Source of the DNA: Salinivenus sp.
Lineage (GTDB): Bacteria > Bacteroidota > Rhodothermia > Rhodothermales > Salinibacteraceae
Direction: 5' to 3'
NCBI GenBank assembly: GCA_018609755.1
Contig: JAHENZ010000026.1
Span: forward strand, 1 to 53,208
Length of the DNA stretch: 53,208 bases
Under the pieces are notes generated by a model. The model searched no databases and was not told the DNA's origin. It saw only the letters and a list, made by a program, of their open reading frames with translations. Shown here one piece after another: positions 12,949 to 30,857 of this stretch (position 1 is the stretch's first letter; each line of letters opens with the position of its first letter). Made by a program: the position numbers and the translations under genes.

Positions 12949-14358
12949 ATGGCATCCTCAGACGAACAGACCCTTGCTGATCGGCTCGACGAGATTGAGG
13001 AATTCGACCGCGAGCCGGTCGACGAAGACAACCTGCAGGGACCGAGCAACTTCATCGGCCTCTTTGCCAGCGAGCACGTGGCGGGCACCGAGTTCGTGAT
13101 CGGGCCGCTCTTTGTGGCACACGGCGTGGCGGCGGCCGATCTGATGTGGGGATTGTTGTTCGGCAACCTGCTGGCGGTGCTCTCCTGGGCGCTCATCTGC
13201 GCACCGATTGCGACGGGTACCCGGCTCAACCTTTACTGGAAGCTGCGCAAGATTGCCGGGCCGGGGCTGCTCGTCGTCTACAATATTGTGAACGCCCTGA
13301 TGTTTTGCTTCCTGGCGGGGTCGATGATCTCGGTGGCCGCGACGGCTGTGGGCCTGCCGTTCGACATGGCGATGCCCGGTCTGGATGCCCTCTATCCCAA
13401 CAGTGTGAGCTGGGTGATCACCGTTCTCCTCGTGGGCAGTGTCGTGACCGTGCTGGCCATTTTGGGGTTTGAGAAAATCACCTATTTCGGAAAGGTCGCC
13501 TCGCCCTGGCTCTTCTTCGTGTTCGTCGCGTGCGGCGTGGCCGTGCTGCCGCAGCTCGGGGTAAACTCCATCTGGGACTTCTGGGAGGTGGCCAACGAGA
13601 AAATCTGGACGGGCGAGCCCGCGGAAGGGCGCGTGCAGTTTACGTTCTGGCACGTCCTGTTCTTCGCGTGGTTTACGAACCTGGGGCACCACGTCGGCAT
13701 GGGGGACCTGTCGACCCTCCGCTACGCCAAGAAGTGGACGTACGGGTTCCTGAGCGCCTTCGGCATGTACCTCGGCCACTTCGTCGCGTGGATTGCCTCG
13801 GGGATTCTCGTGGCCCTCGCCATGCAGCAGGGCGGGGAGGTGGCGTCCGGCCCGATTGCCTACCTCGGCGCGGGCATCGCAGGACTCATCGCCGTGGTCA
13901 TAGCGGGCTGGACGACGGCCAATCCCACCATCTATCGGGCGGGACTCGCCATCCAGACCGTCACGCCCGACTGGAAGCTCTGGAAGGTGACGGGGGCGGT
14001 AGGTGCCGTGACGACTATCGCTGCGCTCTTCCCGGCCCTCATGATGCGACTGCTCGACTTCGTGGCGCTCTACGGCCTCATCCTGATGCCGATGGGCGCG
14101 GTCATCTTTGCCGACTACTGGCTGTTGCCGAAACTCGGCCTGAGAGAAAACTACGCGGAGTGGGGGGAGATCGTCTTTAGCTGGCCAGCGGCGCTCACGT
14201 GGGGCGGGACGCTCGCCGCCTGCTGGGGCATCAACGTCGCCTGGGGATTGCAGATCTTCTTCCTCGGCCTGCCGGGCTGGTTCATTGCCGTTGCGCTCTA
14301 CGTCGGCGCGAGCTACGTGCAGCAGCCCCGCCGTCAAAAGGCATCCGCCTCAGCGTGA
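12949..14358 (+). CDS. NCS1-like (purine-cytosine permease family) transporter
   Basis: 469 residues with about 12 hydrophobic helices and an acidic cytoplasmic N-terminus of about 35 residues. GPSNFIGLFASEHVAGTEFVIGPLFVAHG at the first helix and the 'GWTTANPTIYRAGLAIQTV' segment resemble cytosine/purine permeases of the nucleobase:cation symporter-1 family. It starts 41 bp after the GH78 stop and is followed by rhamnose catabolic genes. Because no other sugar transporter is present, it is the best candidate for L-rhamnose uptake across the inner membrane. That substrate is inference from context; a nucleobase-related substrate remains possible. Confidence 0.75.
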   Translation: MASSDEQTLADRLDEIEEFDREPVDEDNLQGPSNFIGLFASEHVAGTEFVIGPLFVAHGVAAADLMWGLLFGNLLAVLSWALICAPIATGTRLNLYWKLRKIAGPGLLVVYNIVNALMFCFLAGSMISVAATAVGLPFDMAMPGLDALYPNSVSWVITVLLVGSVVTVLAILGFEKITYFGKVASPWLFFVFVACGVAVLPQLGVNSIWDFWEVANEKIWTGEPAEGRVQFTFWHVLFFAWFTNLGHHVGMGDLSTLRYAKKWTYGFLSAFGMYLGHFVAWIASGILVALAMQQGGEVASGPIAYLGAGIAGLIAVVIAGWTTANPTIYRAGLAIQTVTPDWKLWKVTGAVGAVTTIAALFPALMMRLLDFVALYGLILMPMGAVIFADYWLLPKLGLRENYAEWGEIVFSWPAALTWGGTLAACWGINVAWGLQIFFLGLPGWFIAVALYVGASYVQQPRRQKASASA

Positions 14359-14380
14359 GCTTCTCCGTCCCCTTGCTCTT

Positions 14381-14437
14381 CACGCCCACGCTCTTTACTC
14401 CCGCGCTCTCCACCCCCACGCTCTCTTTCTCACGCTC
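14381..14437 (+). repeat. Pyrimidine-rich tandem word array before the small membrane gene
   Basis: The word CACGCTC (or CGCGCTC) recurs at 14387, 14402, 14417 and 14431, spaced 15, 15 and 14 bp with C/T-rich fillers of 7-8 bp, so the basic period is about 7. The array ends 9 bp before the ATG at 14447. There is no matching inverted arm. A similar 14-bp array lies before the CDF transporter gene at 43381-43446 (reverse strand). Confidence 0.7.
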
Positions 14438-14446
14438 ACATTCGCC

Positions 14447-14632
14447 ATGAAAACACTGCTCAAGATCATTTCCTTCCTGGGCCTCGGCCTCGTGGTCGTG
14501 CCGGCGTTCCTCGTCTTTGCGGGGACGATTGCCTGGGAGACGCACGCGACGCTCATGCTGGTGGGCACCATCGCCTGGTTCGCGACCAGTCCCTTTTGGA
14601 TGCAGGAAGAGATGCCGGAGGAGCCGGCGTAA
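14447..14632 (+). CDS. Small two-helix membrane protein of the rhamnose operon
   Basis: 61 residues. Two hydrophobic helices (about residues 5-28, IISFLGLGLVVVPAFLVFAG, and 33-50, TLMLVGTIAWFATSPFW) are followed by the acidic tail MQEEMPEEPA. The ATG at 14447 is chosen because it puts a lysine and the first helix at the N-terminus; upstream codons in frame read through a repeat array. It lies between the NCS1-like permease and the isomerase on the same strand, so it could be an accessory subunit of the permease. No family is recognised. Confidence 0.65.
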   Translation: MKTLLKIISFLGLGLVVVPAFLVFAGTIAWETHATLMLVGTIAWFATSPFWMQEEMPEEPA

Positions 14633-14666
14633 GATGCTCGTTTTTCCGTAGAACGTTGGAAGGTTG

Positions 14667-15953
14667 ATGATTGGTATGATTGACGACATTGCGACATACA
14701 ACGATTCCTCGGCAAACGATCACGAGCGCGATTTGGAGGCAATTTCCGAGCGTCTGGACCGACGGGGGATTGACGCCGAGGCCGTCATCGACCGGATCGG
14801 GACGTTCGAGGTGGCGGTGCCGTCGTGGGCGCTGGGCACGGGCGGCACGCGGTTCGGGCGGTTTCCGATCGAGGGCGAGCCCCGCAACGTTTACGAGAAA
14901 ATGGACGACACGGCCGTCATTCAGAAGTTGACCCGGGCTACGCCCCGCGTCTCGCTCCACATTCCGTGGGACGAACCGGACGACGTGGATCGCCTGAAAG
15001 CGCACGCGGACGACCGGGGCCTCGGCTTCGACGCCGTCAACTCGAACACCTTTCAGGATCAGCCGGACCAGGAGCACAGCTACAAGTTCGGCTCTTTTAG
15101 CCACACCGATCCCGCCGTGCGGCAGCAGGCCGTCGATCACAACCTGCACGTCGTGGAGCTGGGAGAGGCTCTCGGCTCAGAGGCCATCACGATCTGGCTC
15201 GCCGACGGCAGCAATTTTCCCGGGCAGATGAACCTGCGCAAGAGCTTTGACCGGGTGCTTGGAGGCTTAGAAACTGTCTACGATGGGCTGCCGGACGGAT
15301 GGCGGCTCTACACGGAGCACAAGCCCTACGAACCGGCCTTTTACGCCACGGTGGTGCAGGACTGGGGGTCCTCGCTTATGCTCGCCAATCGGCTGGGTCC
15401 AAAGGCCCAGTGCCTCGTGGACCTCGGGCACCACCTCCCCAACACGAACATCGAGCTCGTGGTGGCTCGGCTCCTGACGGCGGGCAAGCTGGGGGGCTTT
15501 CACTTCAACGATTCGAAGTATGGGGACGACGATCTGACGACCGGTTCGATCAAGCCCTACCAGCTCTTCCTCGTATTCAACGAGCTGGTGGACGCAGAAG
15601 AGGAGGACCTCGACAACTTCAATCCGGACTACATGATCGATCAAAGCCACAACCTCAAGGACCCGATCGAGGCGTTTCTGCAGACCGTCGACCAGTTGCA
15701 GAAGGCCTACGCGAAAGCCGTGATTGTCGACCGCGACGCGTTGAGCGAATACCAGCAAGCCAACGACGCGCTCAAAGCCGAAGAGACGCTGAAGCAGGCC
15801 TACGAGACGGGCGTCTCACCCCTCGTGGCGGAGGCGCGGCGACGACAAGGCGGGGCCCTCAATCCCGTAGCCGCGTTTCGGGCGTCCGGCTACCGCGAAG
15901 CGGTGCACGAGGAGCGGTCGGACGAAGGCTATACGCCGCCGCAGAGCCTTTGA
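14667..15953 (+). CDS. rhaI: L-rhamnose isomerase (RhaI type)
   Basis: 428 residues. It resembles the L-rhamnose catabolism isomerases of the Pseudomonas stutzeri/Gram-positive RhaI type rather than enteric RhaA: FEVAVPSWALGTGGTRFGRF near residue 45, LHIPWDEPDD, AITIWLADGSNFPGQMNLRKSF and HFNDSKYGDDDLTTGSI, with metal-binding Glu, Asp and His residues spread through a TIM barrel (YTEHKPYEP, LVDLGHHLPNTNIE). It converts L-rhamnose to L-rhamnulose in the cytoplasm. ATG 14667 or 14676 may be the start; GGAAGG lies at 14658-14663. It is followed by a hairpin repeat and rhamnulokinase. Confidence 0.9.
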   Translation: MIGMIDDIATYNDSSANDHERDLEAISERLDRRGIDAEAVIDRIGTFEVAVPSWALGTGGTRFGRFPIEGEPRNVYEKMDDTAVIQKLTRATPRVSLHIPWDEPDDVDRLKAHADDRGLGFDAVNSNTFQDQPDQEHSYKFGSFSHTDPAVRQQAVDHNLHVVELGEALGSEAITIWLADGSNFPGQMNLRKSFDRVLGGLETVYDGLPDGWRLYTEHKPYEPAFYATVVQDWGSSLMLANRLGPKAQCLVDLGHHLPNTNIELVVARLLTAGKLGGFHFNDSKYGDDDLTTGSIKPYQLFLVFNELVDAEEEDLDNFNPDYMIDQSHNLKDPIEAFLQTVDQLQKAYAKAVIVDRDALSEYQQANDALKAEETLKQAYETGVSPLVAEARRRQGGALNPVAAFRASGYREAVHEERSDEGYTPPQSL

Positions 15954-15968
15954 CGACTGGGGATGTGA

Positions 15969-16040
15969 GTATGGGAGTGTGGGTGTTTGGGAGTAAGACG
16001 GGAGATATTCAAAACCCCCATACTCCCACACGCCCATACC
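15969..16040 (+). repeat. Inverted tandem-word hairpin between rhaI and rhaB (8-bp period)
   Basis: The left arm, 15969-15992, consists of GTATGGGA, GTGTGGGT and GTTTGGGA. The right arm, 16017-16040, consists of CCCATACT, CCCACACG and CCCATACC. The arms pair over 23 bp with 3 mismatches, around a loop of about 25 bases. It ends 54 bp before the rhaB start and has no T-run. Confidence 0.85.
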
Positions 16041-16094
16041 CAAATGCAGAACCGACAGCGGCAGCTACACCACTTGGAATTGCTTCGGCGCATC

Positions 16095-17552
16095 ATGAAC
16101 ACCTCTCCTCCTCAATTTCTTGCTTTCGATCTTGGCGCTTCGCACGGGCGGGCCTTGTTGGGCACGCTCGACAATGCCGATCTGGACGTGGAGGAGGTGC
16201 ATCGCTTCAAGACGCCGCTGCTGGAGGAAGGGGAGCGGCTGTTCTGGGATCTGGAGGTGCTGGAGCGGGAGGTGGATGCCGGGGTCCGGGCAGCGCTGGA
16301 CAGTGCCAGCAATCTACGAAGCCTCAGCGTGGATGCCTGGGGCGTCGATTTCGTGCCGCTGGACGCGGAGGGGACGCCTCTTCGCAACCCGCGCGCTTAC
16401 CGCGACCCTCGCACGCAGGCCGTGATGGACGCGACGCTGGAGGAGGTGTCCCGGGAAGAGATCTATGCCGTGACGGGCACTCAGTTTATGCCGATCAACA
16501 CCCTCTATCAGGTGCGGGCCGACCGCGAGATGGAGCCGGCACTTGTGGACCGCACGGTCCAGCGCCTCTTCATTGCCGATTATTTGCACTACCGCTACTC
16601 GGGGCGGGCCGTCGCCGAGCTGTCCATCGCGAGTACCGCCCAGCTGATGGACGTGCGCACCCACGAGTGGGCGACGGACCTAATGGAACGCCTCGACATC
16701 AACCCCACGACCTGGCCCAAGATCGTTCCCCCCGCGACGTGTCTCGGGTCATTCGAGCCGCCCACCAATTCGCCATTCGAAACTCGAAATTCGACATTCG
16801 AAATTGTAGCCGGATGTTCGCACGACACGGCCTGCGCCGTGGCGGCGGCTCCTGCCGAAGACGACGGATCCTCTTGGGCGTACCTCAGCTGCGGGACGTG
16901 GTCGCTGCTGGGCGTCGAACGCGAGGAGTCCATCTTCACCGACGCGGCCCGCGAGGCTGGCTACACGAACGAAATCGGGCTGGACAGCACAGTCCGCTTT
17001 CTGAAGAACCTGACTGGGCTCTGGGTGCTGCAGGAGTGCGAGCGAACATGGGAAGCGTCCGGCGAGTCGGTCGATTACGACACGCTTCAGCGGGAGGCCG
17101 CGGCCGCTCCGTCCCCCGACGGTGTGCTCGACCTGGATCAGCAGCAGTTCTTAGAGCGGGGGGAGATGCCGCAGAAAATTCGGCGGTACTGCCGCGATGA
17201 GGGACTGTCGGTCCCGGAGACCAAAGGGCAGTTTGCGCGCCTCATACTGGAGAGTCTGGCGGCCGATTATCGGGATAAGCTCACCGCTTTGGAGGCAATC
17301 GTCGATGAGCAGATTGACGTGCTCCACCTCGTCGGCGGCGGCTCGCGGAATGAATTGCTCTGCCAGTGGACCGCCGACGCGACCGGATGCCGGGTGGTTG
17401 CTGGTCCGGCGGAAGCCACGGCCCTTGGAAATCTTCTCATTCAGGCCCGGACGATGGGAGCCTTGCCGGACGGATGGTCGATCCGGGACATCGTTCGGGC
17501 AAACGTCGAAATGCAAACGTACGAACCTGACTCGTCGCGGGTCTCCGTCTGA
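16095..17552 (+). CDS. rhaB: L-rhamnulokinase
   Basis: 485 residues of the FGGY sugar kinase family. It has FLAFDLGASHGRALLGTL (phosphate 1 loop), SVDAWGVDFVPLD with a catalytic-type Asp, GCSHDTACAV as the kinase C-domain entry, YLSCGTWSLLGVE and LHLVGGGSRNELLCQ for adenosine binding. It phosphorylates L-rhamnulose at C1. ATG 16095 is chosen because the conserved N-terminus starts there; upstream in-frame codons cross a hairpin repeat. Residues 225-237 (NSPFETR then NSTFEI) are encoded by a 7-bp tandem repeat like those found between genes, in a loop just before the conserved GCSHDTA. The frame is kept, so the enzyme may still work. Confidence 0.93.
   Translation: MNTSPPQFLAFDLGASHGRALLGTLDNADLDVEEVHRFKTPLLEEGERLFWDLEVLEREVDAGVRAALDSASNLRSLSVDAWGVDFVPLDAEGTPLRNPRAYRDPRTQAVMDATLEEVSREEIYAVTGTQFMPINTLYQVRADREMEPALVDRTVQRLFIADYLHYRYSGRAVAELSIASTAQLMDVRTHEWATDLMERLDINPTTWPKIVPPATCLGSFEPPTNSPFETRNSTFEIVAGCSHDTACAVAAAPAEDDGSSWAYLSCGTWSLLGVEREESIFTDAAREAGYTNEIGLDSTVRFLKNLTGLWVLQECERTWEASGESVDYDTLQREAAAAPSPDGVLDLDQQQFLERGEMPQKIRRYCRDEGLSVPETKGQFARLILESLAADYRDKLTALEAIVDEQIDVLHLVGGGSRNELLCQWTADATGCRVVAGPAEATALGNLLIQARTMGALPDGWSIRDIVRANVEMQTYEPDSSRVSV
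16767..16805 (+). repeat. 7-bp tandem repeat inside the rhamnulokinase gene
   Basis: Five and a half units in phase: AATTCGC, CATTCGA, AACTCGA, AATTCGA, CATTCGA and a partial AATTGTA. The same words (AATTCGA, AATTCGC, CATTCGC) form the right arm of the gcvH-guaA hairpin at 30821-30848. Three units equal 21 bp, which explains the 7-residue echo in the protein. Confidence 0.85.
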
Positions 17553-17577
17553 CGGTCGGGTCACGTTTTGGGGAGTG

Positions 17578-17640
17578 TTGCGTATTTCGTATTGCGTACG
17601 CCGTTCTCCCTTGCACGTTTACGAAATACGCACCACGCAA
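17578..17640 (+). repeat. Inverted tandem-word hairpin between rhaB and the aldolase fusion (7-bp period)
   Basis: Left arm 17578-17598: TTGCGTA, TTTCGTA, TTGCGTA. Right arm 17620-17640: TACGAAA, TACGCAC, CACGCAA. A perfect 13-bp stem forms between 17579-17591 and 17620-17632. A T-run (ATTTTTTG) follows at about 17645-17651, so it may act as an attenuator or terminator 41 bp before the next ATG. Confidence 0.85.
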
Positions 17641-17681
17641 TACCATTTTTTGCACTTTGAACGCTCAACACTGTAGACCCA

Positions 17682-19880
17682 ATGGAAACGACACAGACTG
17701 AATTCAAACACGTCGACAATCTCTGGGACGACGAGAAAGCCGAAGAACTCGATCCAGTAGAGACGCTCGTCTATCGCTCGAACCTGCTGGGGGACGACTG
17801 GCGGATTACCAACACCGGCGGCGGCAACACGTCGTCGAAGCTCATGGAGACCGATCCCATTACCGGGGAGGAGGTAGAAGTCCTCTGGGTGAAGGGATCC
17901 GGTGGCGACCTTCGGACGGCCGAGAAGAAAAACTTTGCGTCGCTCTATCAGGAAGAGGTCCTCGCGTTGCAGGACGTCTATTTTGACTTTGACGAGACCG
18001 GCGTGAAGACGGTGGCGGAGGACGAGATGACGAAGATGTATGACCACTGCGTCTTCAACCTCAACGAGCGGTCGCCGTCGATCGACACGCCGCTGCACAG
18101 CTTTATTCCCCACAAGCACGTCGATCACACCCATCCGGTGGCGTGCATCGCGATTGCGACGGCCGAGAACGGGGAAGAGCTCACGCAGGAAATCTACGGC
18201 GACGACATTGTGTGGACCGACTGGCAGCGGCCGGGCTTTGAGCTGGGGCTGGAGATGCAGCGCATCTGCGAGGAGTACCCCGAGGCCAAGGGCGTGATGC
18301 TCGGGGGGCACGGCATCATCAACTGGGCCGACGAGAGCCACAAGAAGTGCTACCTCCGCAGCCTGGCGCTCATCGACCGGGCGGAGGAGTATCTGCAGCA
18401 GAATGGCAAGGCGACATATGCGTTCGGTGGGGCCAAATATGAGCCGCTCGGCGAAGAGAAACGTGCCGACGTGCTGACCGACGTGCTCCCGTGGCTTCGC
18501 GGGCAGGTGAGCCAGGACAAGAAGATGATCGCGACGGTGGAGACGGGCGAGGTCATTCAGCGCTTCGTGAATGGAGAAGAGGCCGAGCGGCTGGCCGAGC
18601 TCGGCACCTCGTGCCCCGACCACTTTCTGCGCACCCGCATCAAGCCGCTTTTTGTGGACTGGGACCCGCAGAATGGCACCGCCGAGACGCTCAAGGAGGC
18701 GCTGGCGGAAGGGCTCGAACAGTACCGCGAGGACTACCGCGAATACTACGAGACGTGCTCCGAGCCGGGCGACCCGGACATGCGCGGTTCCGATCCCACC
18801 GTGATTCTCATTCCGGGCATTGGCACCGTGGCCTGGGGAAAGAACAAGAGCGAGTCGCGCGTGACGGCCGAGTTTTTCAACGCCGCCGTGGAGGTCATGC
18901 GCGGGGCGGAGGCCATCGGCACCTACACGGCACTGCCGCGCCAGGAGGCCTACGACATCGAATACTGGCGGCTGGAGCAAGCGAAGCTGGAGCGCATGCC
19001 GCCCGAGGAGGAGCTGGCCCGCGAGATCGTTATAGTCGTGGGCGGGGGCAGTGGCATTGGGCAGGCCACCGTGCCGCGCCTGATCGAAGAGAATGCGACG
19101 GTCGCCGCGCTGGATTTAGACGTGGAAGCCGCGGAGGCCACCGCCGAAGGCATCATGGAGGAGATCGGCATGGGCATCGGCGTGGCCGGGTCCGGCGTCT
19201 CGCGCTGCGGAGACGTGATCGGCCTCGGCTGCGACGTGACCGACCGCGACTCCATCCGGGACGCGCTGGACGACGTGGTGCTGGCGTACGGTGGGCTCGA
19301 CCACGTGGTCGTGACCGCGGGCCTCTACGTGAGCCCGGACGATGAGGGTCGCATTCCGGACGAGAAGTGGGACGACACCTTTGCGGTGAACACAAAAGGT
19401 CCACACCTCGTGGCGGACGAAGCCGCGTCGATCTGGGACGCGCAGGGCCTGGACGGCAGCATGGTCATCACGACGAGCGTGAATGCCGTGGTGCCCAAGA
19501 CGGGGAGTTTTGCCTACGACACCACCAAGGCGGCCACGAACCATCTCGTGCGGGAGCTGGCGATCGAGCACGCCCCGAACGTGCGCGTGAACGGCCTCGC
19601 CCCCGCGACAGTCGTCGAAGGCAGCTCCATGTTTCCGCGTGAGCGGGTGAAGGCCTCTCTGGACAAGTATGGACTTGACTATGAGGACGACGAGTCGACC
19701 GAGGCGCTGCGGGCGAAGCTCGCCAACTTCTACGCAGCGCGGACGCTCACGGGCGAACCGATCACGCCCGATGACCAGGCGGAGGCGATCTTCCTGCTCG
19801 TCAGCGACGACCGCTTCGGCAAGACGACCGGCCAGGTACTGACGGTGGACGGCGGGCTACAGGAGGCGTTCCTACGGTGA
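17682..19880 (+). CDS. Bifunctional rhamnulose-1-phosphate aldolase / L-lactaldehyde dehydrogenase
   Basis: 732 residues, two domains. Residues 1-400 are a class II aldolase: NTGGGNTSSKL, WVKGSGGDL and the zinc-binding HKHVDHTHP near residue 146, then MLGGHGIINWAD. Residues 445-732 are a short-chain dehydrogenase: VVGGGSGIGQATV for NAD binding, the catalytic Tyr and Lys in SFAYDTTKAA, and a C-terminal GQVLTVDGG. The fusion (RhaEW type) splits L-rhamnulose-1-phosphate to dihydroxyacetone phosphate and L-lactaldehyde and oxidises the aldehyde to L-lactate. It is the last gene of the rhamnose operon and is followed by a strong hairpin with T-run. Confidence 0.93.
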   Translation: METTQTEFKHVDNLWDDEKAEELDPVETLVYRSNLLGDDWRITNTGGGNTSSKLMETDPITGEEVEVLWVKGSGGDLRTAEKKNFASLYQEEVLALQDVYFDFDETGVKTVAEDEMTKMYDHCVFNLNERSPSIDTPLHSFIPHKHVDHTHPVACIAIATAENGEELTQEIYGDDIVWTDWQRPGFELGLEMQRICEEYPEAKGVMLGGHGIINWADESHKKCYLRSLALIDRAEEYLQQNGKATYAFGGAKYEPLGEEKRADVLTDVLPWLRGQVSQDKKMIATVETGEVIQRFVNGEEAERLAELGTSCPDHFLRTRIKPLFVDWDPQNGTAETLKEALAEGLEQYREDYREYYETCSEPGDPDMRGSDPTVILIPGIGTVAWGKNKSESRVTAEFFNAAVEVMRGAEAIGTYTALPRQEAYDIEYWRLEQAKLERMPPEEELAREIVIVVGGGSGIGQATVPRLIEENATVAALDLDVEAAEATAEGIMEEIGMGIGVAGSGVSRCGDVIGLGCDVTDRDSIRDALDDVVLAYGGLDHVVVTAGLYVSPDDEGRIPDEKWDDTFAVNTKGPHLVADEAASIWDAQGLDGSMVITTSVNAVVPKTGSFAYDTTKAATNHLVRELAIEHAPNVRVNGLAPATVVEGSSMFPRERVKASLDKYGLDYEDDESTEALRAKLANFYAARTLTGEPITPDDQAEAIFLLVSDDRFGKTTGQVLTVDGGLQEAFLR

Positions 19881-19887
19881 TGCTTGA

Positions 19888-19961
19888 CGCGTGATACGTG
19901 AGGCGTGAGAAGATGGGCATTGTTGCTCATCAATCACGCCTCACGTTTTATTTTTCACGCC
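19888..19961. terminator. Bidirectional terminator built of 7-bp words, end of rhamnose operon
   Basis: A perfect 13-bp stem, ACGTGAGGCGTGA (19896-19908) with TCACGCCTCACGT (19934-19946), has a 25-base loop and is followed by TTTTATTTTT on the forward strand. The left arm reads as heptads (CGCGTGA, TACGTGA, GGCGTGA), the right as TCACGCC, TCACGTT. It sits between convergent genes, so it can serve both. Confidence 0.8.
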
Positions 19962-20386
19962 AGCAGTCGGTCGTATGCCACCTTGATGCACCGGTTGCGG
20001 ACGTATGGCAGGCCGGCCTCCGCGGCCAGTGTTTCCGCTTCGGAGCTCGACACGCCCAGCTGCGTCCAGATCACGGGGGTTTTTCCAGTCTGCTCGGCGC
20101 GTTCGATGGCCGTGCGCACCATGTCGGCGGTATGCTGCGGCGCCCGAAAGATGTCGACAATGTCGATCGGAACGTCTTCGGGCACGCTCGGCAGGTCCGG
20201 GTAGCAGGGCTCGCCCAGTACCTCGTCGTAGTTCGGATTCACCGGCACGATGCGGTAGCCGCGCTTCTGCATGTACCGTGCAATTTTGTGGCTGGTGCGC
20301 GTGGGTTGGGCCGAGCATCCTACCACGGCGATGGTTTTGGCCGATTCGAGTACGGATTGAAGATCGGGCGTCTCTACGCTGGGCAT
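19955..20386 (-). CDS. CoA-binding (Rossmann) domain protein, YccU-like
   Basis: 143 residues forming one CoA-binding domain: TIAVVGCSAQPTRTSHKIARYMQKRGYRIVPVNPNYDEVLGEPCYPDL near residues 18-65, then DIVDIFRAPQHTADMV and VIWTQLGVSSSEAETLAAEAGL. These match stand-alone CoA-binding proteins related to the N-terminal domain of succinyl-CoA synthetase alpha. The conserved tail RCIKVAYDRLL is also family-typical. Its physiological role is unknown. It converges on the rhamnose operon and shares the hairpin terminator; its stop codon lies inside the last repeat word. Confidence 0.88.
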   Translation of the reverse strand: MPSVETPDLQSVLESAKTIAVVGCSAQPTRTSHKIARYMQKRGYRIVPVNPNYDEVLGEPCYPDLPSVPEDVPIDIVDIFRAPQHTADMVRTAIERAEQTGKTPVIWTQLGVSSSEAETLAAEAGLPYVRNRCIKVAYDRLLA

Positions 20387-20595
20387 AGAACGATTGAATT
20401 TTAGGACGGAGGGTGGAGAGGGACGCGGACGGTCGGTACCCTGTTTTTGCTGGTTCTTGGCGCATCATCAGGGATCCATCCCTCGGATCAGTTCCGTACA
20501 ACCCTGTTATTGTTACGCGTCGGTCCCGACGAGAGTGCCCTTTTCCAGGCCGGGACCTCGTTTTTCAACCCCGAATGCCGAACGCTGCGCGTCTT

Positions 20596-23202
20596 ATGGC
20601 CTATCCGTTTGAGGACATCGAACCGAAATGGCAGGAGTACTGGGAGGATCATCAAACCTTCCGTACGCCGGACGAACCCCGACAGCTGTCGGGGGAGGAG
20701 AAGGTGTACGTCCTCGACATGTTTCCGTACCCCAGCGGCTCCGGCCTCCACGTAGGACATCCGGAGGGCTACACCGCCACTGACATCGTGGCGCGCTACA
20801 AGCGCATGCAGGGCGTCAATGTCCTGCATCCGATGGGGTGGGACGCCTTTGGATTGCCCGCCGAGCAGTACGCGATAAAGACGAACACGCATCCGCGCGA
20901 CACGACCAAGGAAAACATTGCCCAGTTCAAGCGTCAGCTCAAAAGTCTGGGCTTCTCCTACGACTGGCAGCGGGAGATCAACACCACCGATCCCGACTAC
21001 TACAAGTGGACACAGTGGATCTTCCTGCAGCTCTACAAGAAAGGACTGGCCTACCAGTCCGAGGAGCCGGTGTGGTGGTGCGAGGAGCTCGGCACCGTGC
21101 TGGCCGACGAGGAGGTCATCGACGGCAAGAGCGAGCGCGGCGGCTATCCCTGTGAGCGTGTGCCGATGCGGCAGTGGGTGCTCAAGATCACCGAATACGC
21201 CGATCGGCTGCTCGAAGGCCTTGACGATCTGGACTGGCCGGAAAGCACCAAGGAGATGCAGCGCAACTGGATCGGCCGCTCGGAGGGGGCAAACATCTAC
21301 TTCGACCTCGTGGGGGTGGACGACTCGCTGAAAGTCTACACCACGCGCCCGGATACTCTCTTCGGGGGCACCTACATGGTGTTGGCGCCCGAGCACGACC
21401 TTGTGGACGAGATTACGACCGACGAGCACCGGGAGGCCGTCGAGGAGTACCGACAGGAGGCCCTACAGAAGAGCGACGTGGAGCGGAAGCAGGAAGACAA
21501 GACCGGCGTCTTTACCGGCGGCTACGCCGTCAATCCGGCCACCGGCGAAGAGATTCCCGTCTGGGTGGCCGACTATGTGCTGGCCTCCTACGGTACGGGC
21601 GCCATCATGGCCGTGCCCGCCCACGACGAACGGGACTACGCCTTCGCTCAAAAGTTTGACCTCCCCATCCGCGAGGTGGTGGAGGGCGGCAACGTTGACG
21701 AAGAGGCGTACACGGAAGACGGACCGCACGTCAACTCCGCCAACGACGACGTGGACCTCAACGGTCTGCACAACGAGGAGGCACAGGAGCGCATTGTGGA
21801 GTGGCTGGAGGAGGAGGGAAAAGGAGAGCACCGGGTGAACTACCAGTTGCGCGATTGGCTCTTCAGCCGGCAGCGCTACTGGGGCGAGCCGTTCCCAATC
21901 CTCTTTACGGAAGACGGGGAAGACAAGCCGGTGCCCGAGGACGAGCTGCCGGTGACGCTGCCCGACATCGAAACGTTTGAGCCGAGCGGGTCGCCCGAAG
22001 GGCCGCTCTCCAACATTGAGGACTGGGTCAACACGACGGATCCGGAGACCGGCGAGCCCGCCACCCGCGAGACCAACACAATGCCGCAGTGGGCCGGTTC
22101 CTGCTGGTACTACCTCCGCTTCATCGATCCGGACAACGACGAACGGCTGGTTGATCCGGAGAAGGAGCAGTACTGGATGCCGGTCGACCTCTACGTGGGC
22201 GGGTCGGAGCACGCGGTGCTGCACCTGCTCTACGCCCGCTTCTGGCACAAGGTGTTGTACGACGCAGGGGTCGTGTCGACGAAAGAGCCGTTCCAGACGC
22301 TCGTGCACCAGGGCATGATTCTGGGAGAAAAGGAGTACACGACCTTCGTCGATCCGGACGGGCAGTACGTATCGGCCGAACGCGTAGAAGACGGGGTCGA
22401 CACCCGCACCGGAACCGAGGTTGAGCGCAAAGAACTCGACGAAGACGAGGTCGAGAAGGACGGTGACGTGTTCGTCCTAAAAGAGCAACCGGACGTGCGG
22501 GTAGAGGCGCGCAGCCACAAGATGAGCAAAAGCCGGGGCAACGTCATCAATCCCGACGACGTGGTGGACGAGTATGGGGCCGACACGCTCCGCCTCTACG
22601 AGATGTTTATGGGGCCGCTGGAGCAGGACAAGCCCTGGAGCACCGACGACGTGGAGGGGGTCCATCGCTTCCTGAACCGCGTGTGGCGCCTCCTCGTCGA
22701 CGATGACGAACTTGCTGTGACCGATGAGGAGCCGGAGCGCGAGCAGCTACGCGAGCTCCACCAGACGATCAAGAAGGTGACGCAGGACATCGAGCACCTC
22801 GACTTCAACACCGCCATCGCGGCGATGATGGAGTTTTTGAATGCGGCCAACAAGTGGGACGCTGTGCCGCGCGAGATCGCCGAGTCGCTGGTTCTGCTCC
22901 TCAGTCCGTTCGCGCCCCACATTAGCGAGGAGCTGTGGGAGCGATTGGGGCACGACGAGAGTCTGGCCTACGCAGACTGGCCCGAGTACGAAGAGGCGCT
23001 GTTGCACCGCGAGGTGGTGGAGATGGCCGTGCAGGTGAACGGCACGGTGCGAGGCACCATCGAGGTCGAAGTCGACGCCGACGAAGAAGACGTACTGGCG
23101 GCGGCGAAAGAGGACGAAAATGTGGCGCGTCACCTCGACGGCAAGACCATTCAGCGCGAGATCTACGTGCCCGGCCAGATCGTCAACTTTGTGGCAAACT
23201 AG
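20596..23202 (+). CDS. leuS: Leucyl-tRNA synthetase
   Basis: 868 residues, normal for bacterial Leu[19 protein letters not shown] is the usual N-terminus, which favours ATG 20596 over ATG 20575 and over earlier open codons. The class I signatures are present: the HIGH equivalent in [18 protein letters not shown] near residue 45 and [10 protein letters not shown] near 640. The CP1 editing domain has [14 protein letters not shown] and [16 protein letters not shown] leucine-specific insertion (acidic, [19 protein letters not shown]) precedes KMSKS. It charges tRNA-Leu in the cytoplasm. The TAG stop is part of the CTAG flank of a MITE. Confidence 0.97.
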
Positions 23203-23372
23203 TGGGCTTGCACAACTGAAACGCGAGAACTCGCAGATCTCGTGACGCTGTTTCCGTCTGTTTCTCCTGCGCGGAATATGCTCGGGATCGACCGCTGCCG
23301 GCAACCGCTGACGATTGTGGCGTCAGGGGACCGACGCTCGAAACCGCCAGAGGAGTTGTGCAAGGTCACTAG
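23199..23372. mobile_element. MITE-like element, family C, copy 2 (CTAG-flanked)
   Basis: Same 174-bp span including flanks, same orientation and clearly similar sequence to the copy at 886-1059 (blocks such as GACGCTGTTTCCGTCTG and GTGGCGTCAGGGGACCGACG are identical). The ends are TGGGCTTGCACAACT and the complementary AGTTGTGCAAGGTCA. The left CTAG contains the leuS stop codon. Both copies continue with CTAGCGT on the right, so the true element or target may extend a few bases further. Confidence 0.85.
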
Positions 23373-23413
23373 CGTTCCGAATCTGCACGCCGGCGTTTCG
23401 TATCACGGAACGT

Positions 23414-23716
23414 TTAGTTTTTACCCGTTACGAGGTCTGGCCCCGGTGCGTTGCCGTGCAGCACGTACCAGACGAGCATCGCCTCGTCCGTAGAGCCATA
23501 GGGGCACCCAACCTCCCGGTATTTTTCCCAGGCCTGTCGGTATAGATTCAGCGCACACTGCTGCATTGCGGGGGAAAGCGCCGGCGCATCGGTGTGATCA
23601 ACGCCGAAAGGGAGAAGCGAAAGGTCATCACGGTCGGGCATAAGGGTGCATTCGGCCTTATCAGAAAAACTGGTGAAGCACTCAGGAGGTTGCGGAGTGA
23701 TTCCTGAGTCAATCAC
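23414..23716 (-). CDS. Small hypothetical protein
   Basis: 100 residues from GTG 23716 (GAGGAG lies directly upstream), or 75 residues from an internal ATG at 23641. The later part looks protein-like: DLSLLPFGVDHTDAPALSPAMQQCALNLYRQAWEKYREVGCPYGSTDEAMLVWYVLHG, with an aromatic helix and a well-balanced composition. No signal, membrane helix or known family is recognised. It lies between a MITE and the divergent bshB1 gene, sharing a gap of under 50 bp with it. Confidence 0.5.
   Translation of the reverse strand: MIDSGITPQPPECFTSFSDKAECTLMPDRDDLSLLPFGVDHTDAPALSPAMQQCALNLYRQAWEKYREVGCPYGSTDEAMLVWYVLHGNAPGPDLVTGKN
23680..23716 (+). other. Overlapping alternative hairpins before bshB1
   Basis: ACTCAGGA (23680-23687) can pair with TCCTGAGT (23702-23709), while GGAG-TGATT (23695-23703) can pair with AATCACCTCC (from 23711). 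The two stems share bases and cannot form together. The site lies 48 bp before the bshB1 ATG and over the start of the reverse-strand small gene. Confidence 0.35.
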
Positions 23717-23763
23717 CTCCTCATTCTACCAAAACTGTTCCATCCTTCCTTCCTGTTTTCTTT

Positions 23764-24531
23764 ATGGCCGACGCTCCCACCCTCGACGTGCTTGCATTCG
23801 CCGCCCATCCCGACGACGTAGAGCTTTGTGCGGGGGGGACCATGTGCTTACTTGCCCAGCAGGGGTACGACGTCGGCATCGTCGACTTTACGAAGGGACA
23901 ACTGGGATCGCGCGGCACACCGGAACTGCGGTTGGAAGAGGCGGAGCGGGCGTCGGAGATCATTGGGCTCTCGGCCCGTGAGAATCTGGGCTTGATGGAT
24001 GGGGACATCCGAAACACCAAAGAGAACCAGCGAAAAGTGATAGAGGTGGTACGCCGGTACCGTCCCGACATCGTTCTCACAAATGCGCCGCAAAGCCGCC
24101 ATCCCGATCACGAGGACGCCGCAGAATTATCGACCGATGCCCTGTACTACAGCGGTCTCAAAGAGATCAAGACGCCCGGGCCGGACGGCACTCCACAGGC
24201 GCCCTGGCGCCCACACCACGTGCTCCACTACATGCAGGCGGTGTCATTCGACCCCACGATGGTCGTGGACGTGACGGACGTGTGGGGGCAGCGCATCGAA
24301 GCGCTGCAAGCGTTCAAGTCGCAGTTCCACAATCCCGACTACGAGCCGGACGAGGACGAGCCGGAGACGTTCGTGTCCAACCCGCAGTTCTTCGAGTGGG
24401 TGAAATCGAAGGCTCGTACGTACGGGTACAAAGTGGGGGCCACCTACGGCGAGCCCTTCCTCTACCGCCAAGGCCCGTTTGGGGTAACGGACCTGCCGTC
24501 GGTGCTCAGCAAGGAGAAAGAATTCCGGTAA
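23764..24531 (+). CDS. bshB1: Bacillithiol biosynthesis deacetylase BshB1
   Basis: 255 residues of the LmbE/PIG-L deacetylase family. It has the zinc-binding AHPDDVELCAGGTM near residue 13, VDFTKGQLGSRGTPELR, the 'GLMDGDI' segment and PQSRHPDHEDAA with the third metal ligand. The BshB1 branch is suggested by length and by 'LSARENLGLMDGDIRNTKENQ' and the C-terminal 'YGYKVGATYGEPFLYRQGPFGV' (substrate loop). It removes acetate from N-acetylglucosaminyl-malate to give GlcN-malate, the second step of bacillithiol synthesis in Bacteroidota and Firmicutes. No other bsh gene is in the window. Confidence 0.9.
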   Translation: MADAPTLDVLAFAAHPDDVELCAGGTMCLLAQQGYDVGIVDFTKGQLGSRGTPELRLEEAERASEIIGLSARENLGLMDGDIRNTKENQRKVIEVVRRYRPDIVLTNAPQSRHPDHEDAAELSTDALYYSGLKEIKTPGPDGTPQAPWRPHHVLHYMQAVSFDPTMVVDVTDVWGQRIEALQAFKSQFHNPDYEPDEDEPETFVSNPQFFEWVKSKARTYGYKVGATYGEPFLYRQGPFGVTDLPSVLSKEKEFR

Positions 24532-25106
24532 CGAGAAGACGCGAGACGGACGTTCCCAGGGCTTTGTGCGGATAGAGAAAAGGCATTGTAGTCGTCGTAT
24601 AGGGTCAGCTCCTAAAGGTCCCGTTCCTGTCCGGTTCGGGTGGGGAGCAAGCTCCGGTCAATCTATCATTTCTGAGTCCAATTCTTTTCGCTGATGATGG
24701 GGGAAGAAGGTAATCGGTCAAGGCCCGATGTCCCCCCTGTAGATCTGCGAGATTTAATCACTCGTTGAATGCTCCAAAAGAGGCATGCACGCACATCTTT
24801 TCCCGTGCAGGTGTTGAAAAGAGAAGGCCATTTTGGAGTCCCGTTCGTGCTCTCCGGGATCATCGGGGGCATTTTCGTTTGGAAAGGGGCGCCGAAACAG
24901 GGGAGGTCATCCAACTTTAGGGGGAGAGGGAAGGTCTTTAGAACACGAGCGCATGTAGGAAAATCAGTCCCCGGAAGGGAGGCAAGACCCTACGAAAGAT
25001 CCGTCGTCGATTCGTTCGATGTAGCGAGGGAGCAAGACACTTCGCCCTCGGGGTGTACTGAAAAAGAGGAAGACCCTCGCACACGAACTAATAAAGGCCT
25101 AAAGGA
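24532..25106. other. Gene-poor stretch before the FtsZ paralogue
   Basis: 575 bp without a convincing gene. Open frames here either run into ftsZ in another phase or have unlikely composition. Base composition is visibly poorer in GC than the flanking genes. No tRNA, known structured RNA or clear promoter was recognised. AAAGGA directly precedes the ftsZ ATG. Confidence 0.5.
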
Positions 25107-26303
25107 ATGTTTGAAAGATTCAACAATCGGACGCTTCGACAGCTTTTTGGATCACAGCTCACGGGTAACGCCCGCATTGCCGTTGTTGGGGTGGGAGGAG
25201 GAGGAGGGAATGCAGTCAACAATATGGTCGAGAAAGGGATCGAGGGCGTCGACTTTATCGCGGTCAACACAGATTCTCAGGTGCTCGCCACCAACAAAGC
25301 GGACCGTTGCATCCAGGTGGGAGAAGAAGCAACGGGTGGACTGGGAGCAGGGGCTCGTCCTGAGTTGGGAGCAGAGGCCCTAAAGGAAAGTTCGGACGTG
25401 GTTGAGAACGCCCTTAAACCATACGACCTGGTCTTCATCACGGCGGGCATGGGAGGGGGCACCGGGACCGGAGGGGCGCCCGTCCTCGCCTCGATTGCTC
25501 AGGAGTTGGGCATCCTCACCGTAGGCATCGTGACTCGACCCTTCGAATGTGAGGGGCCTCGACGTCATAGGGTCGCCGAACGGGGGATTGAGCAACTTCG
25601 CGGGGAGGTTGACACCTTGGTCGTCATTCCCAACGAAAGTTTGCTCGAGCTTGCTAATGATGGGACCAGTCTCGAAGAGGCATTTTGGATGGTCGATGAG
25701 GTGCTCTACGATTCAACTCGAGGCATTGTGAATCTCATTACCTCCGAAGGACTGATCAATCTCGACTTTGCGGACGTCGAGCGGACCATGCGGGACGGCG
25801 GGAGTGCCCTTCTCGGCATTTCCACTCAGTATGACATGCGTCAGTACCGGACGCCCCGGGGAAAAGCACAAAAGACCGACGGGGGCCAAAACGGCACTGG
25901 CGAAACTTCGAGTCGCCCTGAAGAAGCTGCAGTTGCAGCCATCTCAAGCCCTCTATTCGATGGGCGATCCATCCACGGAGCAGACAAGGCGTTGGTGTAT
26001 GTGACTGGAGGCCCGTCTCTTGGTTTTCAGGAGGTGATGTCGGTCATAGAGGTGATTCAAGCCGAGGCCGGGGAGAATTGTGAGGTGATCTTCGGCGCGG
26101 TTACCGATGAAAGCATCGATGGTCAGTTTCAAGTCATGGTGATTGCCACCGGGCTCGACGAAGAGCAGTCCTTTGACGGCACCATTCAGAATCCTTCTCA
26201 GAGGTTAGATCAGTTGAAGGAACTCAATGGCCAGGACCGCGAGGGCGACTCTGTCCCTTTGGCCATGGAAAACGGGGGGGAAGAACACCATCAGGAACAA
26301 TGA
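25107..26303 (+). CDS. FtsZ paralogue (tubulin-like GTPase) without the usual C-terminal tail
   Basis: 398 residues. The FtsZ core is intact: RIAVVGVGGGGGNAVNNM at about 23-40, VNTDSQVLA, the GGLGAGARPELG loop, the tubulin signature GGGTGTG at 116-122 and the T7 loop NLDFADV near 218 with both catalytic aspartates. It should therefore bind and hydrolyse GTP and polymerise. It differs from canonical FtsZ in three ways: RPFECEGPRRHRVAERG in place of the usual PFxFEG(x)RR helix; an insertion of about 20-25 residues at 241-265 (QYDMRQYRTPRGKAQKTDGG); and a short acidic end (GGEEHHQEQ) with no conserved FtsA/ZipA-binding peptide. No dcw genes are nearby. It may be an accessory FtsZ; whether the genome has a canonical one cannot be seen here. 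Confidence 0.85.
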   Translation: MFERFNNRTLRQLFGSQLTGNARIAVVGVGGGGGNAVNNMVEKGIEGVDFIAVNTDSQVLATNKADRCIQVGEEATGGLGAGARPELGAEALKESSDVVENALKPYDLVFITAGMGGGTGTGGAPVLASIAQELGILTVGIVTRPFECEGPRRHRVAERGIEQLRGEVDTLVVIPNESLLELANDGTSLEEAFWMVDEVLYDSTRGIVNLITSEGLINLDFADVERTMRDGGSALLGISTQYDMRQYRTPRGKAQKTDGGQNGTGETSSRPEEAAVAAISSPLFDGRSIHGADKALVYVTGGPSLGFQEVMSVIEVIQAEAGENCEVIFGAVTDESIDGQFQVMVIATGLDEEQSFDGTIQNPSQRLDQLKELNGQDREGDSVPLAMENGGEEHHQEQ

Positions 26304-26504
26304 TCATTGGAAAGTCGAGACCCGACCGTAGGGAATTTAATCGGAAAAGTGATCCAACGATTCTGCTGTCGAGGCTTCCAGGTTACGCGAGGGCAAGCCT
26401 GCGTCCTGGCCTCTTTTCACGTTCTGGGTGGTCTACACCTTCACGGTCCGTTTAGCGGGAGGAATCTGCCGCCAGGTTCGGCACGATGAGGCAACTCCGA
26501 TAGG

Positions 26505-26861
26505 TCATTGGAGGGACCGTGCTCGAAAGGTGGGAATCAGCCAGACGACCCACGCGGTGAGCATCCAGAGGGGACCGACGAGAAAGATAGGCACTACGAG
26601 AACCACGAGGCCATTCCAGGTAAGCCCAGCGTAGCCCGGGAGCTTTGGATTTTCGCTCAGCCAGAAGGCCCATCCGACCCCGGTCAGGCCCACGACTCCT
26701 AAAGTCGCGCCAAGTAGCTTGAGAGTGAACGTGAAGCCCTCGGCCCCGCTGAGGGTTGAGAAGGAAGGAATATCGCCGAAGGATATGCCGAGGAGGAAGA
26801 TAAGCAGGCCGGCCATGAGGGGCACAGAGGAATAAAGTAGTATGAGCGTTTGTTTTCTCAC
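26505..26861 (-). CDS. Small membrane protein, three to four helices
   Basis: 118 residues, strongly hydrophobic. Helices are likely at about 6-26 (LILLYSSVPLMAGLLIFLLG), 46-68 (FTLKLLGATLGVVGLTGVGWAFW) and 80-110 (GLTWNGLVVLVVPIFLVGPLWMLTAW). Positive charges sit at the N-terminus (MRKQ) and the C-terminus (FRARS). No family is recognised. It converges with the FtsZ paralogue, about 200 bp away. The clean helix pattern and balanced composition argue for a real gene. Confidence 0.6.
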   Translation of the reverse strand: MRKQTLILLYSSVPLMAGLLIFLLGISFGDIPSFSTLSGAEGFTFTLKLLGATLGVVGLTGVGWAFWLSENPKLPGYAGLTWNGLVVLVVPIFLVGPLWMLTAWVVWLIPTFRARSLQ

Positions 26862-27274
26862 GGGACAGTGCCGGGAAGGTGAGCAGTAGGAAGAAAGGTT
26901 ATTTGATAGTAAAAAAGCGCTGCATGGGAATGCAATTCTTTTTGTAAGCGATCACGGCAATCGCATCGTGGCTGGAAGACCAGATGTACCCTTCAAGCAA
27001 AGCCCCCCAGGCGACGCCTAAGACGCACGAGTGCGTCACGCCCATACTCACATACGCTCCGGTACGAGGGATGCCCGGGAGACGTGCCTCCACCGCTCAG
27101 GCTACGTCTGAACAATATGATTGCCCTGTATAAGCAATGTCTCTGTTTGGGCCAGTTTGGATGTCGGAGGCAAGTGAATTGTCAGTAGGGGGAGAAGAAA
27201 CCCTGCAACAATGCAGGCGGTGCGGTTTTCATACCAAATGCGGCGGTCTGGATTATTTGAGGTAGGTGCGTACG
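26862..27274. other. Intergenic stretch with 16-bp palindrome
   Basis: About 410 bp without a convincing gene; a 64-codon reverse frame at 26899-27093 has no recognisable family. The perfect palindrome GACGCACGAGTGCGTC lies at 27022-27037, next to a short GGCGACGCC hairpin, and together they could form a cruciform or a terminator without T-run. The rest is unassigned. Confidence 0.4.
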
Positions 27275-27304
27275 TTGACACCGCCAGCCTCCGCACGGTA
27301 TATT
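27275..27304 (+). promoter_or_regulatory. Strong sigma-70-like promoter of efp
   Basis: TTGACA (27275-27280), an 18-bp spacer and TATATT (27299-27304) form a near-perfect -35/-10 pair. Transcription would start near 27311, about 35 nt before the efp ATG. It probably drives the efp-accB-accC transcription unit. Confidence 0.65.
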
Positions 27305-27345
27305 GACTGACCGTCATCCTTCTCGAATGGAGCAACAACATCCGT

Positions 27346-27930
27346 ATGGCGGATACGAGTGATTTCCGAAACGGCATGACGTTCATCTGGAAAGACGATC
27401 TCTGGGAGATCGTGGACTTTCTGCACGTGAAGCCCGGCAAGGGCGGCGCCTTCGTGCGCACCACCCTCAAGAACGTGAAAGACGGCCACGAGGTGGAAGA
27501 GACGTTTCGGGCCGGAGCGAAGGTGGACGAGGTACGCATCGAGCGGCGCCCACACCAGTACCTCTACGAAGACGACTACGGTCTTCACTTCATGAATACG
27601 GACACCTATGAACAGTTTTCGATGCCGCCCGAGCAGGTGGAGGGTCGCGAGTACCTGAAGGAAGGCGGTGACGTCGACATTCTGTTCCGCGTCGATACGG
27701 AGGAGCCGCTCCGCACCGAGGTGCCCCTGAAGGTGGAGCTGGAGGTCGTGGAGACGACGCCGGGCGTGAAGGGCGATACTGCACAAGGCGGCGACAAGCC
27801 CGCAACGCTTCAAAGTGGTGCCACGGTCGACGTCCCTCTCTTCATCAATGAGGGAGACGTCGTTCGCGTGAACACGAAAACCGGTGAGTACGAGACCCGT
27901 GTGTCGGAGGCGGAGGGACCGACCGTGTAG
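27346..27930 (+). CDS. efp: Elongation factor P
   Basis: 194 residues, slightly longer than the usual 185-190. [42 protein letters not shown] is the KOW-like first domain with the tip lysine in PGKGGA that is modified in many bacteria. Two OB domains follow, with the family signature in the last one ([26 protein letters not shown]). EF-P helps ribosomes form peptide bonds at proline runs. A modification enzyme is not encoded nearby. It is followed after 55 bp by accB, a common arrangement. Confidence 0.97.
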
Positions 27931-27985
27931 CTTCCATTCGGAAGGATGTGTGCCCGCAGGCTTTTTCGAAGACACCCCCCAGACG

Positions 27986-28624
27986 ATGAAGCTCTCGAAG
28001 ATTCAAGAACTGCTGCGCCTCGTGGCCGAAAGTGGCGTGTCGGAGATCGAGATTGAGGAAGACGACTTCAAGCTTACCATCCGGCAGAACAGCCCTCAGG
28101 TGCTCATGCAGCCGGCTCAGTACCCAGCCCAGCAGGGATACGGGGCTCCGCAGCAGATGCAGCCCCAGGCGCCCCCGCAACAAGCGCCGCCCCAGCCCGC
28201 GCCGCAGCCTCAGCAACAGGCCGCGCCCGGAGGGGGACAAGCACAGCCCGCCTCGACGGGAGGAGCGCAGCAGGCGGCTGCCGGAAATGCCACGCAAGAC
28301 GGGGCGTCCGCTCCCGCATCGACACAGGACACCACCGGAAATGGTACGGCGGAGACCGAGACGGAGGCGGACACGGACACCGAGGAGCACGTCGTGAAAG
28401 CGCCCATTGTTGGCACCTTCTACCGGGCGCCCTCCCCCGATTCCGATCCGTTCGTCGAGGTCGGCGATTCTGTTTCCGAGGGCGACGTCCTCTGCATCAT
28501 CGAAGCGATGAAGCTGATGAACGAGATCGAGTGTGAGACATCGGGCACCGTTCAGGAAATTTTGGTAGAGGACGCTGAGCCCGTCGAATTCGATCAGCCG
28601 CTCTTTGTGATCGAAGAGGACTAG
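27986..28624 (+). CDS. accB: Biotin carboxyl carrier protein of acetyl-CoA carboxylase
   Basis: 212 residues from ATG 27986. [34 protein letters not shown] is the normal AccB N-terminus, so the earlier open codons, which overlap efp, are rejected. A long linker rich in Gln, Pro and Ala (residues 40-110) precedes an acidic stretch and the biotinyl domain ([25 protein letters not shown]). The biotin lysine is in EAMKLMNEI. The linker is longer than in Escherichia coli AccB (156 residues in total). It carries biotin between AccC and the carboxyltransferase in fatty-acid synthesis. Confidence 0.96.
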
Positions 28625-28683
28625 CGCTTCCGCTCCGTCGTGTTGAGCTACTTCTTTCGGGTCTGCCCTGAGAGGAGTAGGAT

Positions 28684-28757: not shown

Positions 28758-28815
28758 CGGAATCTCAGTCTTTCGCTTCTGAACTCCTCCCTGCGGTATC
28801 TGACTCCGATTCCGA

Positions 28816-30177: not shown

Positions 30178-30182
30178 GGGGC

Positions 30183-30769: not shown

Positions 30770-30773
30770 ACAC

Positions 30774-30852: not shown

Positions 30853-30857
30853 GCCCG

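Follow-up and report, generated by a model that had tools for sequence, protein, structure and literature searches.

A capped heptanucleotide array in the rhaB gene of Salinivenus sp. and its relation to a dispersed intergenic repeat

The rhaB gene and its array

The window analyzed here is a stretch of 53,208 nucleotides from Salinivenus sp. (contig JAHENZ010000026.1). An L-rhamnulokinase gene of the FGGY family, rhaB, occupies positions 16095 to 17552 (+), the assignment resting on Pfam, a relative of solved structure and model comparison. RhaB contains the FGGY_N and FGGY_C domains, and its best sequence relative of solved structure is E. coli RhaB (2cgj). A structure search listed FGGY-type kinases, as expected, and aligned the model with 2cgk (Z 50.1, rmsd 1.8, 467 residues aligned) and with L-fuculose kinase 4c23 (Z 53.8, rmsd 2.4, 469 residues aligned). 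With its FGGY domains and RhaB-type fold, the protein belongs to the rhamnulokinases. Hairpins of two further word families flank the gene, to neither of which a strand applies: one of octad words (KTGGGAGT/ACTCCCAM) at 15963 to 16050 on the 5′ side, and one of heptads (TTGCGTA/TACGMAA) at 17575 to 17636 on the 3′ side.

Within rhaB lies a tandem array of heptads. TRF reports positions 16767 to 16805 with a period of 7, 5.6 copies and 78% matches, which together with the exact grammar confirms the original prediction of a period-7 repeat at these positions. The grammar consists of five MMAYTCG units followed by a cap, MMAYTG, and spans 16766 to 16806 (+); in order the units are CA-ATTCG, CC-ATTCG, AA-ACTCG, AA-ATTCG, AC-ATTCG and AA-ATTG. 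The array is translated as NSPFETR/NSTFEI, residues N225 to I238 (numbered from the ATG at 16095), directly before GCSHDTA. The units, the frame and this position had been predicted correctly; the end had been placed slightly short, at 16805 and residue 237, whereas the array reaches 16806 and I238. The reading frame is open across the array and RhaB is otherwise intact. The cap, AAATTG at 16801 to 16806, is of the same kind as those of the intergenic arms described below, and rhaB holds a single 3′-type arm complete with this cap; parsing of the gene yielded no second arm. Just 5′ of the array a single word-like unit, ATTCGAG (16751 to 16757, +), may be a microhomology seed, judging from the sequence only.

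The same family of words fills the gap between gcvH and guaA, as had been claimed, where a canonical element runs from 30771 to 30853 (+) between a stop codon at 30767 to 30769 and a start codon at 30858. With up to three mismatches allowed, the heptad grammar has nine matches in the window, four in rhaB and five in the gcvH-guaA gap; the expectation from 100 dinucleotide shuffles is 0.02. The shuffles and the reversed-pattern control described below rule out chance as the origin of these arrays.

RhaB relatives and the acquired loop

The tract is present in none of 35 RhaB relatives, 27 of which are from the same order and eight from a scan of other genomes. The loop from the preceding Gly to the SHDT block comprises 22 residues in our protein and 11 to 16 in 34 of the 35; the remaining one, from Chloroflexi, has 21 residues of a sequence unrelated to the tract. 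The nearest relative (G013, 66% identity) has a loop of 16 residues and no heptads. Because no relative carries the tract and 34 of them have a shorter loop, we regard it as an acquired segment, which supports the predicted in-frame insertion; conservation of its residues in distant RhaB proteins, which would have spoken against such an insertion, was not seen among these 35, and a conserved protein motif is ruled out as the source. The AlphaFold model has a mean pLDDT of 91.3, with an average of 64 for residues 221 to 230, and the tract sits between strands 215-219 and 236-239. This low-confidence stretch between two strands is in keeping with the earlier suggestion that the repeat is tolerated in a loop.

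Repeats promote misassembly and the genome assembly comprises 328 contigs (completeness 95.96, contamination 4.96), conditions under which assembly or binning might join a repeat into rhaB. Against such an artefact, both junctions preserve the reading frame, homology resumes immediately after them, and arrays are also found in G009, whose assembly has only 10 contigs; we give this explanation next to no credence.

RhaB was found in two of 27 family genomes, the second copy being 66% identical. Positions 14200 to 19954, which include rhaB and its neighbors, have no match at E 1e-15 in G008, G009, G001 and G005, and positions 19955 to 34100 largely match the same four genomes in order. Given the rarity of RhaB in the family, the former block may have been acquired or lost. 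Elsewhere in the window, about 160 bp at 23210 to 23372 match six dispersed places in G008 with 74-81% identity, and are probably another repeat family.

The dispersed element

Allowing two mismatches at most, a search for three units of the word gave 70 matches in the Salinivenus genome (G000), which merge into 35 loci; the reversed-pattern control gave no matches in the same genome. At 24 of the 35 loci the arms form an inverted pair of the form CARTKK(CGARTKK)~4 - spacer - (MMAYTCG)~4MMAYTG, and lone arms also occur. Four to five units are present in 21 of the 24 5′ arms and in all 24 3′ arms of these two-arm loci, and the outer ends carry caps common to the loci, CARTKK on the 5′ side and MMAYTG on the 3′ side. 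The 5′ arm mostly begins a few bases after an ORF edge and the 3′ arm mostly ends a few bases before one: the median distance from cap to nearest called edge is 3 nt and 2 nt, respectively, and 19 of 26 5′ caps and 18 of 27 3′ caps lie within 12 nt, 18 of them at starts and 19 at stops. These genes were called by a simple script, and misplaced starts inflate some of the distances. Other word families lie farther from ORFs: in a sample from our genome, G009, G008 and G001, the median distance of the outer edge is 58 nt for TTGCGTA (34 arrays) and 26.5 nt for GTGATRC (16 arrays), compared with 9 nt for the present word, W1 (six arrays, counted without caps).

The crude gene calls placed five of the 35 loci in coding sequence. 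In three cases (CoaE, RecR and a phosphoribosyltransferase) the Pfam domains begin after the array, so we take these loci to be noncoding, the starts having been called too far upstream. Thus two of 35 loci lie inside ORFs, namely rhaB and the linker discussed below. Five further W1 matches called as coding are 17 nt long with up to two mismatches, a length at which chance matches are likely. The word grammar contains no stop codon in any of the six frames.

A period scan of 313,837 bases of the same genome (threshold 18 of 28) gave 13 intergenic and two coding hits at lag 7, and eight intergenic and none coding at lag 8. Lags 4 to 6 and 9 to 13 gave 0 or 1 intergenic hit each, and lags 14, 15 and 16 gave six, two and three. 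Period 7, and to a lesser extent period 8, is therefore an intergenic feature of this 314-kb sample, and the repeats belong to intergenic heptads in the broad sense. The G009 sample agreed less well (nine intergenic and four coding at lag 7), and that of G010 showed no excess, with two intergenic and one coding hit in which an N run is counted; rows from N runs in these two samples are artefacts.

The second coding array lies at L046:1501-1527 (G000:C31:2787-2813), in the linker of a fusion protein with B12-binding and MeaB domains (Pfam), which we take to be IcmF-like. The linker reads FRVSNFDFRI in our protein versus FPVVDAEFHV in relatives, and its length is the same as in 15 of 18 orthologues, one being a residue shorter and two longer. 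Heptads occur at the same spot in G018, with the same word, and in G014 and G021, with the word AKTTSGG, which has few other sites in those two genomes. Judging from these two coding instances, the copying process seems able to enter genes without disturbing the frame. They also make the mechanism experimentally tractable and offer one route from a noncoding repeat to new protein sequence.

Arms, folding and promoter-like sites

When the 5′ arm is compared with the reverse complement of the 3′ arm, similarity is no higher within a locus (0.766) than between loci (0.778; p 0.84, 24 loci). Counting G-U pairs, the values are 0.806 within and 0.817 between loci. Covariation of an RNA stem was thus rejected, since arms pair within a locus no better than between loci. 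The spacers range from -2 to 48 nt and by eye are unrelated and locus-specific. Immediately past the parsed units of one arm of our genome (C196, 5′ side), the array is interrupted by 22 nt.

Relative to shuffles, the RNA folds with z -6.03 at the hairpin on C313, z -1.95 at gcvH-guaA and z -0.17, no better than the shuffles, around the rhaB tract. The folds of these three sites weaken a structural RNA role for the element, which stays conceivable. No Rho-independent terminator (a G+C-rich stem followed by a T run) was found at gcvH-guaA, the sole element scanned; this and the existence of lone arms are consistent with the claim that the units are not mere terminators. A consensus scan of the same element gave two promoter-like sites against 0.1 expected. 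These face outward (30759 to 30786 on the minus strand, 30845 to 30874 on the plus strand), each with its first hexamer, TCGACA, inside an arm, and from these sequences the element may have a part in transcription. The promoter-like sites at gcvH-guaA and the strongly folding hairpin on C313 stand against a purely translational role.

Conservation and turnover between species

In orthologous arms the core letters differ at 26 of 512 positions and the degenerate letters at 75 of 322, compared with 1078 of 5581 in the flanks. The count covers 10 of the 35 loci in 20 locus comparisons and 31 of 32 arm comparisons, one arm of less than 60% identity having been left out, and conservation is biased upward because part of the loci were selected by the presence of a similar array in the relative; synteny supplied the C117 and gcvH-guaA loci. 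Changes at degenerate letters mostly stay within the two-letter alphabet (22 of 28 C/T, 35 of 47 A/C). No whole unit was gained or lost in the 32 arm comparisons, which are between species rather than strains. Gaps inside these arms amount to no deletions, and to insertions of 1-3 nt in three arms. The conserved core, set against varying R/K letters, suggests at the level of sequence that the arrays are recognized by their letters.

A lone arm of 26 nt lies directly against the pheT start codon (C117:26564). Among seven relatives searched, it is identical in G009, G012 and G008 and differs in G005 at R/K letters alone; in G001 and G006 the alignment ends at or before the arm, and in G011 the contig ends. 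A protein of the 23S rRNA-intervening-sequence family (PF05635; L205:17662-18009) is encoded next to pheT, and the gaps to both sides each contain a heptad arm. The G008 orthologue of the C117:27034 gap (L215) measures 443 nt versus 45-63 nt in our genome and three relatives, and holds GGGAATCC/GGATTC-like words, another repeat beside the conserved arm.

Across positions 27950 to 30858, the same gaps in sister species hold hairpins of different words (CGARTKK, TTGCGTA and GTGATRC). The gcvH-guaA gap contains the CGARTKK word in our genome and G008, TTGCGTA-type arrays in G009, G001, G012, G011, G005 and G006, and no array discernible by eye in G003, G004, G007 and G010; G002 gave an ambiguous reading. 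In the gap at 28624 to 28816, our genome and G005 carry GTGATRC-type words and G009 and G008 carry TTGCGTA; nothing is evident in G001. In sister species, one word family seems to have been swapped for another within the same intergenic gap. One gap measures 67 and 75 nt with the element versus 53-65 nt without, and that at 28624 to 28816 measures 191, 185, 229 and 231 nt with hairpins versus 63 nt without. Since the element adds little length in the one gap and the other is longer where it has hairpins, turnover may proceed by both replacement and insertion. Orthologous gaps free of the element were found; their junctions could not be aligned for target-site duplication.

Origin of the rhaB tract

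The last 32 nt of the rhaB array (16775 to 16806, +) are identical to an intergenic 3′ arm, G000:C313:22518-22549. Of the 1653 arm pairs, none other shares so long an exact match; the second-longest are two 27-nt ties, one of which involves rhaB. Arms simulated from the pool of units reached 32 nt in four of 300 runs. A match of this rank speaks for a recent origin among the intergenic arms, and on balance we believe that one arm of the dispersed element was the template for the rhaB tract, copied there ectopically and in recent time, and tolerated in a flexible loop. Alternatively, the match may reflect chance (about 1%) or a donor common to both arms.

Tandem heptads are a classical product of polymerase slippage, which might have expanded a chance word inside rhaB, for example the word-like unit ATTCGAG at 16751, just 5′ of the array. 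Slippage is discussed for heptamers in the sections of the Xanthomonas and Nostoc study used here (PMC4692102), and some arrays of the viral collection described below are long (four of 95 with at least seven units). From a local seed, however, slippage would predict neither the agreement of the variable letters in rhaB with intergenic arms (32 and 27 nt) nor the intergenic cap at the end of the array. Furthermore, arms mostly have four to five units, and no whole units changed in the orthologous comparisons. As unit number does not change and the variable letters are donor-like, templated copying is favored over slippage, which we consider unlikely. The suggestion that the repeat can enter or grow inside coding DNA is therefore borne out for entry, by copying, given its absence from the 35 relatives and the 32-nt match; growth of the array, and the notion that its units are expandable, find no support in arms of near-constant unit number.

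A REP- or MITE-like hairpin might instead have entered rhaB by transposition, with later loss of one arm and the loop. The copies are indeed dispersed inverted repeats whose ends are regular, species differ in which sites are occupied, some gaps are longer with hairpins (185-231 nt vs 63 nt), and the genome itself has two Y1_Tnp matches. But Y1_Tnp was not found in G009, with 30 array matches, or in G022, with 87 (genome 83% complete), and was found twice in G003, which has no array matches. Moreover, one gap is of similar length whether the element is present (67 and 75 nt) or absent (53-65 nt), the second arm is missing from the parse of rhaB, and the arms and spacers behave as described above. 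Independent arms, unrelated spacers and the lack of a tracking Y1 transposase favor templated copying, and insertion of a whole hairpin seems to us as improbable as slippage. The units had also been called mobile, which holds in the sense of copying in trans and fails for a transposed unit, with spacers locus-specific by eye and the transposase not tracking the arrays.

Under templated copying, a short gene conversion or template switch would copy an intergenic arm into the RhaB loop; the upstream ATTCGAG, or else codons similar to the word, may have primed it. The copy would land between the two strands named above, with a net gain of 27 bp relative to the commonest loop length. This differs from the 41 bp of the array, so the event would need replacement as well as insertion. 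Survival of the copy would follow from a net length divisible by three, from the tolerance of the loop, and from the absence of stop codons in all six frames of the word grammar.

The rhaB copy need have no function. That the array works inside rhaB, for instance as a site recognized within the gene or as a loop that benefits the enzyme, might be argued from the full grammar and cap, which are kept with no decay, and from the conservation of the intergenic copies. With only two of 35 loci inside ORFs, relatives that manage without the tract sequence and a surrounding RNA that folds no better than shuffles, we find a function there very improbable.

With less assurance, we propose that the intergenic arrays persist because their sequence is specifically recognized, by a protein or by RNA pairing in trans, at the edges of starts and stops. 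Recognition at translation edges is favored by the conserved core letters, the closeness of ORF edges and the conservation of lone arms. A more speculative and rather doubtful extension is that the degenerate heptads are a code of gene-edge tags, amino-type (MMAYUCG)n immediately before starts and the complementary keto-type (CGARUKK)n immediately after stops, which might be read by a dedicated factor or by pairing of mRNA ends. Such tags would spread by overwriting copying, with other words in sister species, and occasionally rewrite coding sequence, as in rhaB and the IcmF-like linker.

Arrays in viral-collection contigs

Arrays of the exact grammar are found in 78 stretches of IMG/VR contigs. 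An inverted partner lies within 140 nt downstream of 45 of 95 arrays versus one with the same motif upstream (control), and four of the 95 have at least seven units. Given these paired and long arrays, the inverted architecture extends beyond the genus and the near-constant length is not universal. ORF masks on these loci (27 intergenic, 65 inside an ORF, two at an edge) accept any long ORF, are unreliable and were not used. One contig of 40.7 kb, IMGVR_UViG_3300032160_000019 (L246, L257, L274, L312, L318 and L319), has ten listed grammar matches; in its pair in L257 each arm is uniform, and the two arms use different variants.

Comparison with known repeats

Several kinds of dispersed bacterial repeat invite comparison. 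The STRR of cyanobacteria are heptanucleotide tandem repeats dispersed in intergenic DNA; to our knowledge they do not occur as capped inverted pairs beside ORFs. REP/REPIN elements with their RAYT transposases are dispersed extragenic palindromes, linked to Y1 transposases, with a population-like turnover, and their palindrome is conserved as one unit without internal heptad periodicity. Here, by contrast, no Y1 transposase tracks the arrays (two in our genome, none in G009 or G022, two in G003), and the arm similarities of 0.766 within and 0.778 between loci are not those of a hairpin moving as one unit. VNTR or SSR loci vary in unit number among relatives, which was not seen in the 32 orthologous arm comparisons.

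Intergenic heptad repeats have been reported from a small number of bacterial groups, with no consensus on what they do or where they come from, according to the sections used here of the two studies concerned (PMC4692102, PMC4679880), and judged by these sections the nearest known kinds are the repeats of Xanthomonas and Nostoc and those of Beggiatoaceae. The former (GGGANTN/GGGGAYT) are described in the sections of PMC4692102 used here as G-rich intergenic heptads of two up to 26 units, studied as quadruplexes. On the same basis they share with our arrays the period of 7, a degenerate unit and a mostly intergenic location near ORFs; in both, four units is the majority, and related species largely share sites while the sequence varies. 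Our arrays differ from that description in forming mostly inverted pairs of mostly four to five units with caps near start or stop codons, and in having one arm copied into a conserved enzyme. CGARTKK/MMAYTCG also lacks the G-run in each unit that a quadruplex requires.

The Beggiatoaceae repeats (TAACTGA), in the sections of PMC4679880 used here, repeat a single word in direct orientation, mainly upstream of start codons; the largest class ends 1 nt upstream of the start, and 10 of 169 sets are inside ORFs. Like our arrays, as far as those sections go, they are heptads close to starts with a patchy phylogeny and a minority inside ORFs. Our word differs from TAACTGA and our arms are inverted, so the arrays do not belong to that family; compared with the part of the paper used, ours have a degenerate word and lie at starts (18) and stops (19) alike. 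In our literature searches we recognized no paper with the capped inverted heptad architecture, and those with literal repeat strings were also unmatched. What this genome adds to the known heptads is a testable form: capped, mostly inverted arrays of near-constant length, set against starts and stops and conserved mainly at their core letters.
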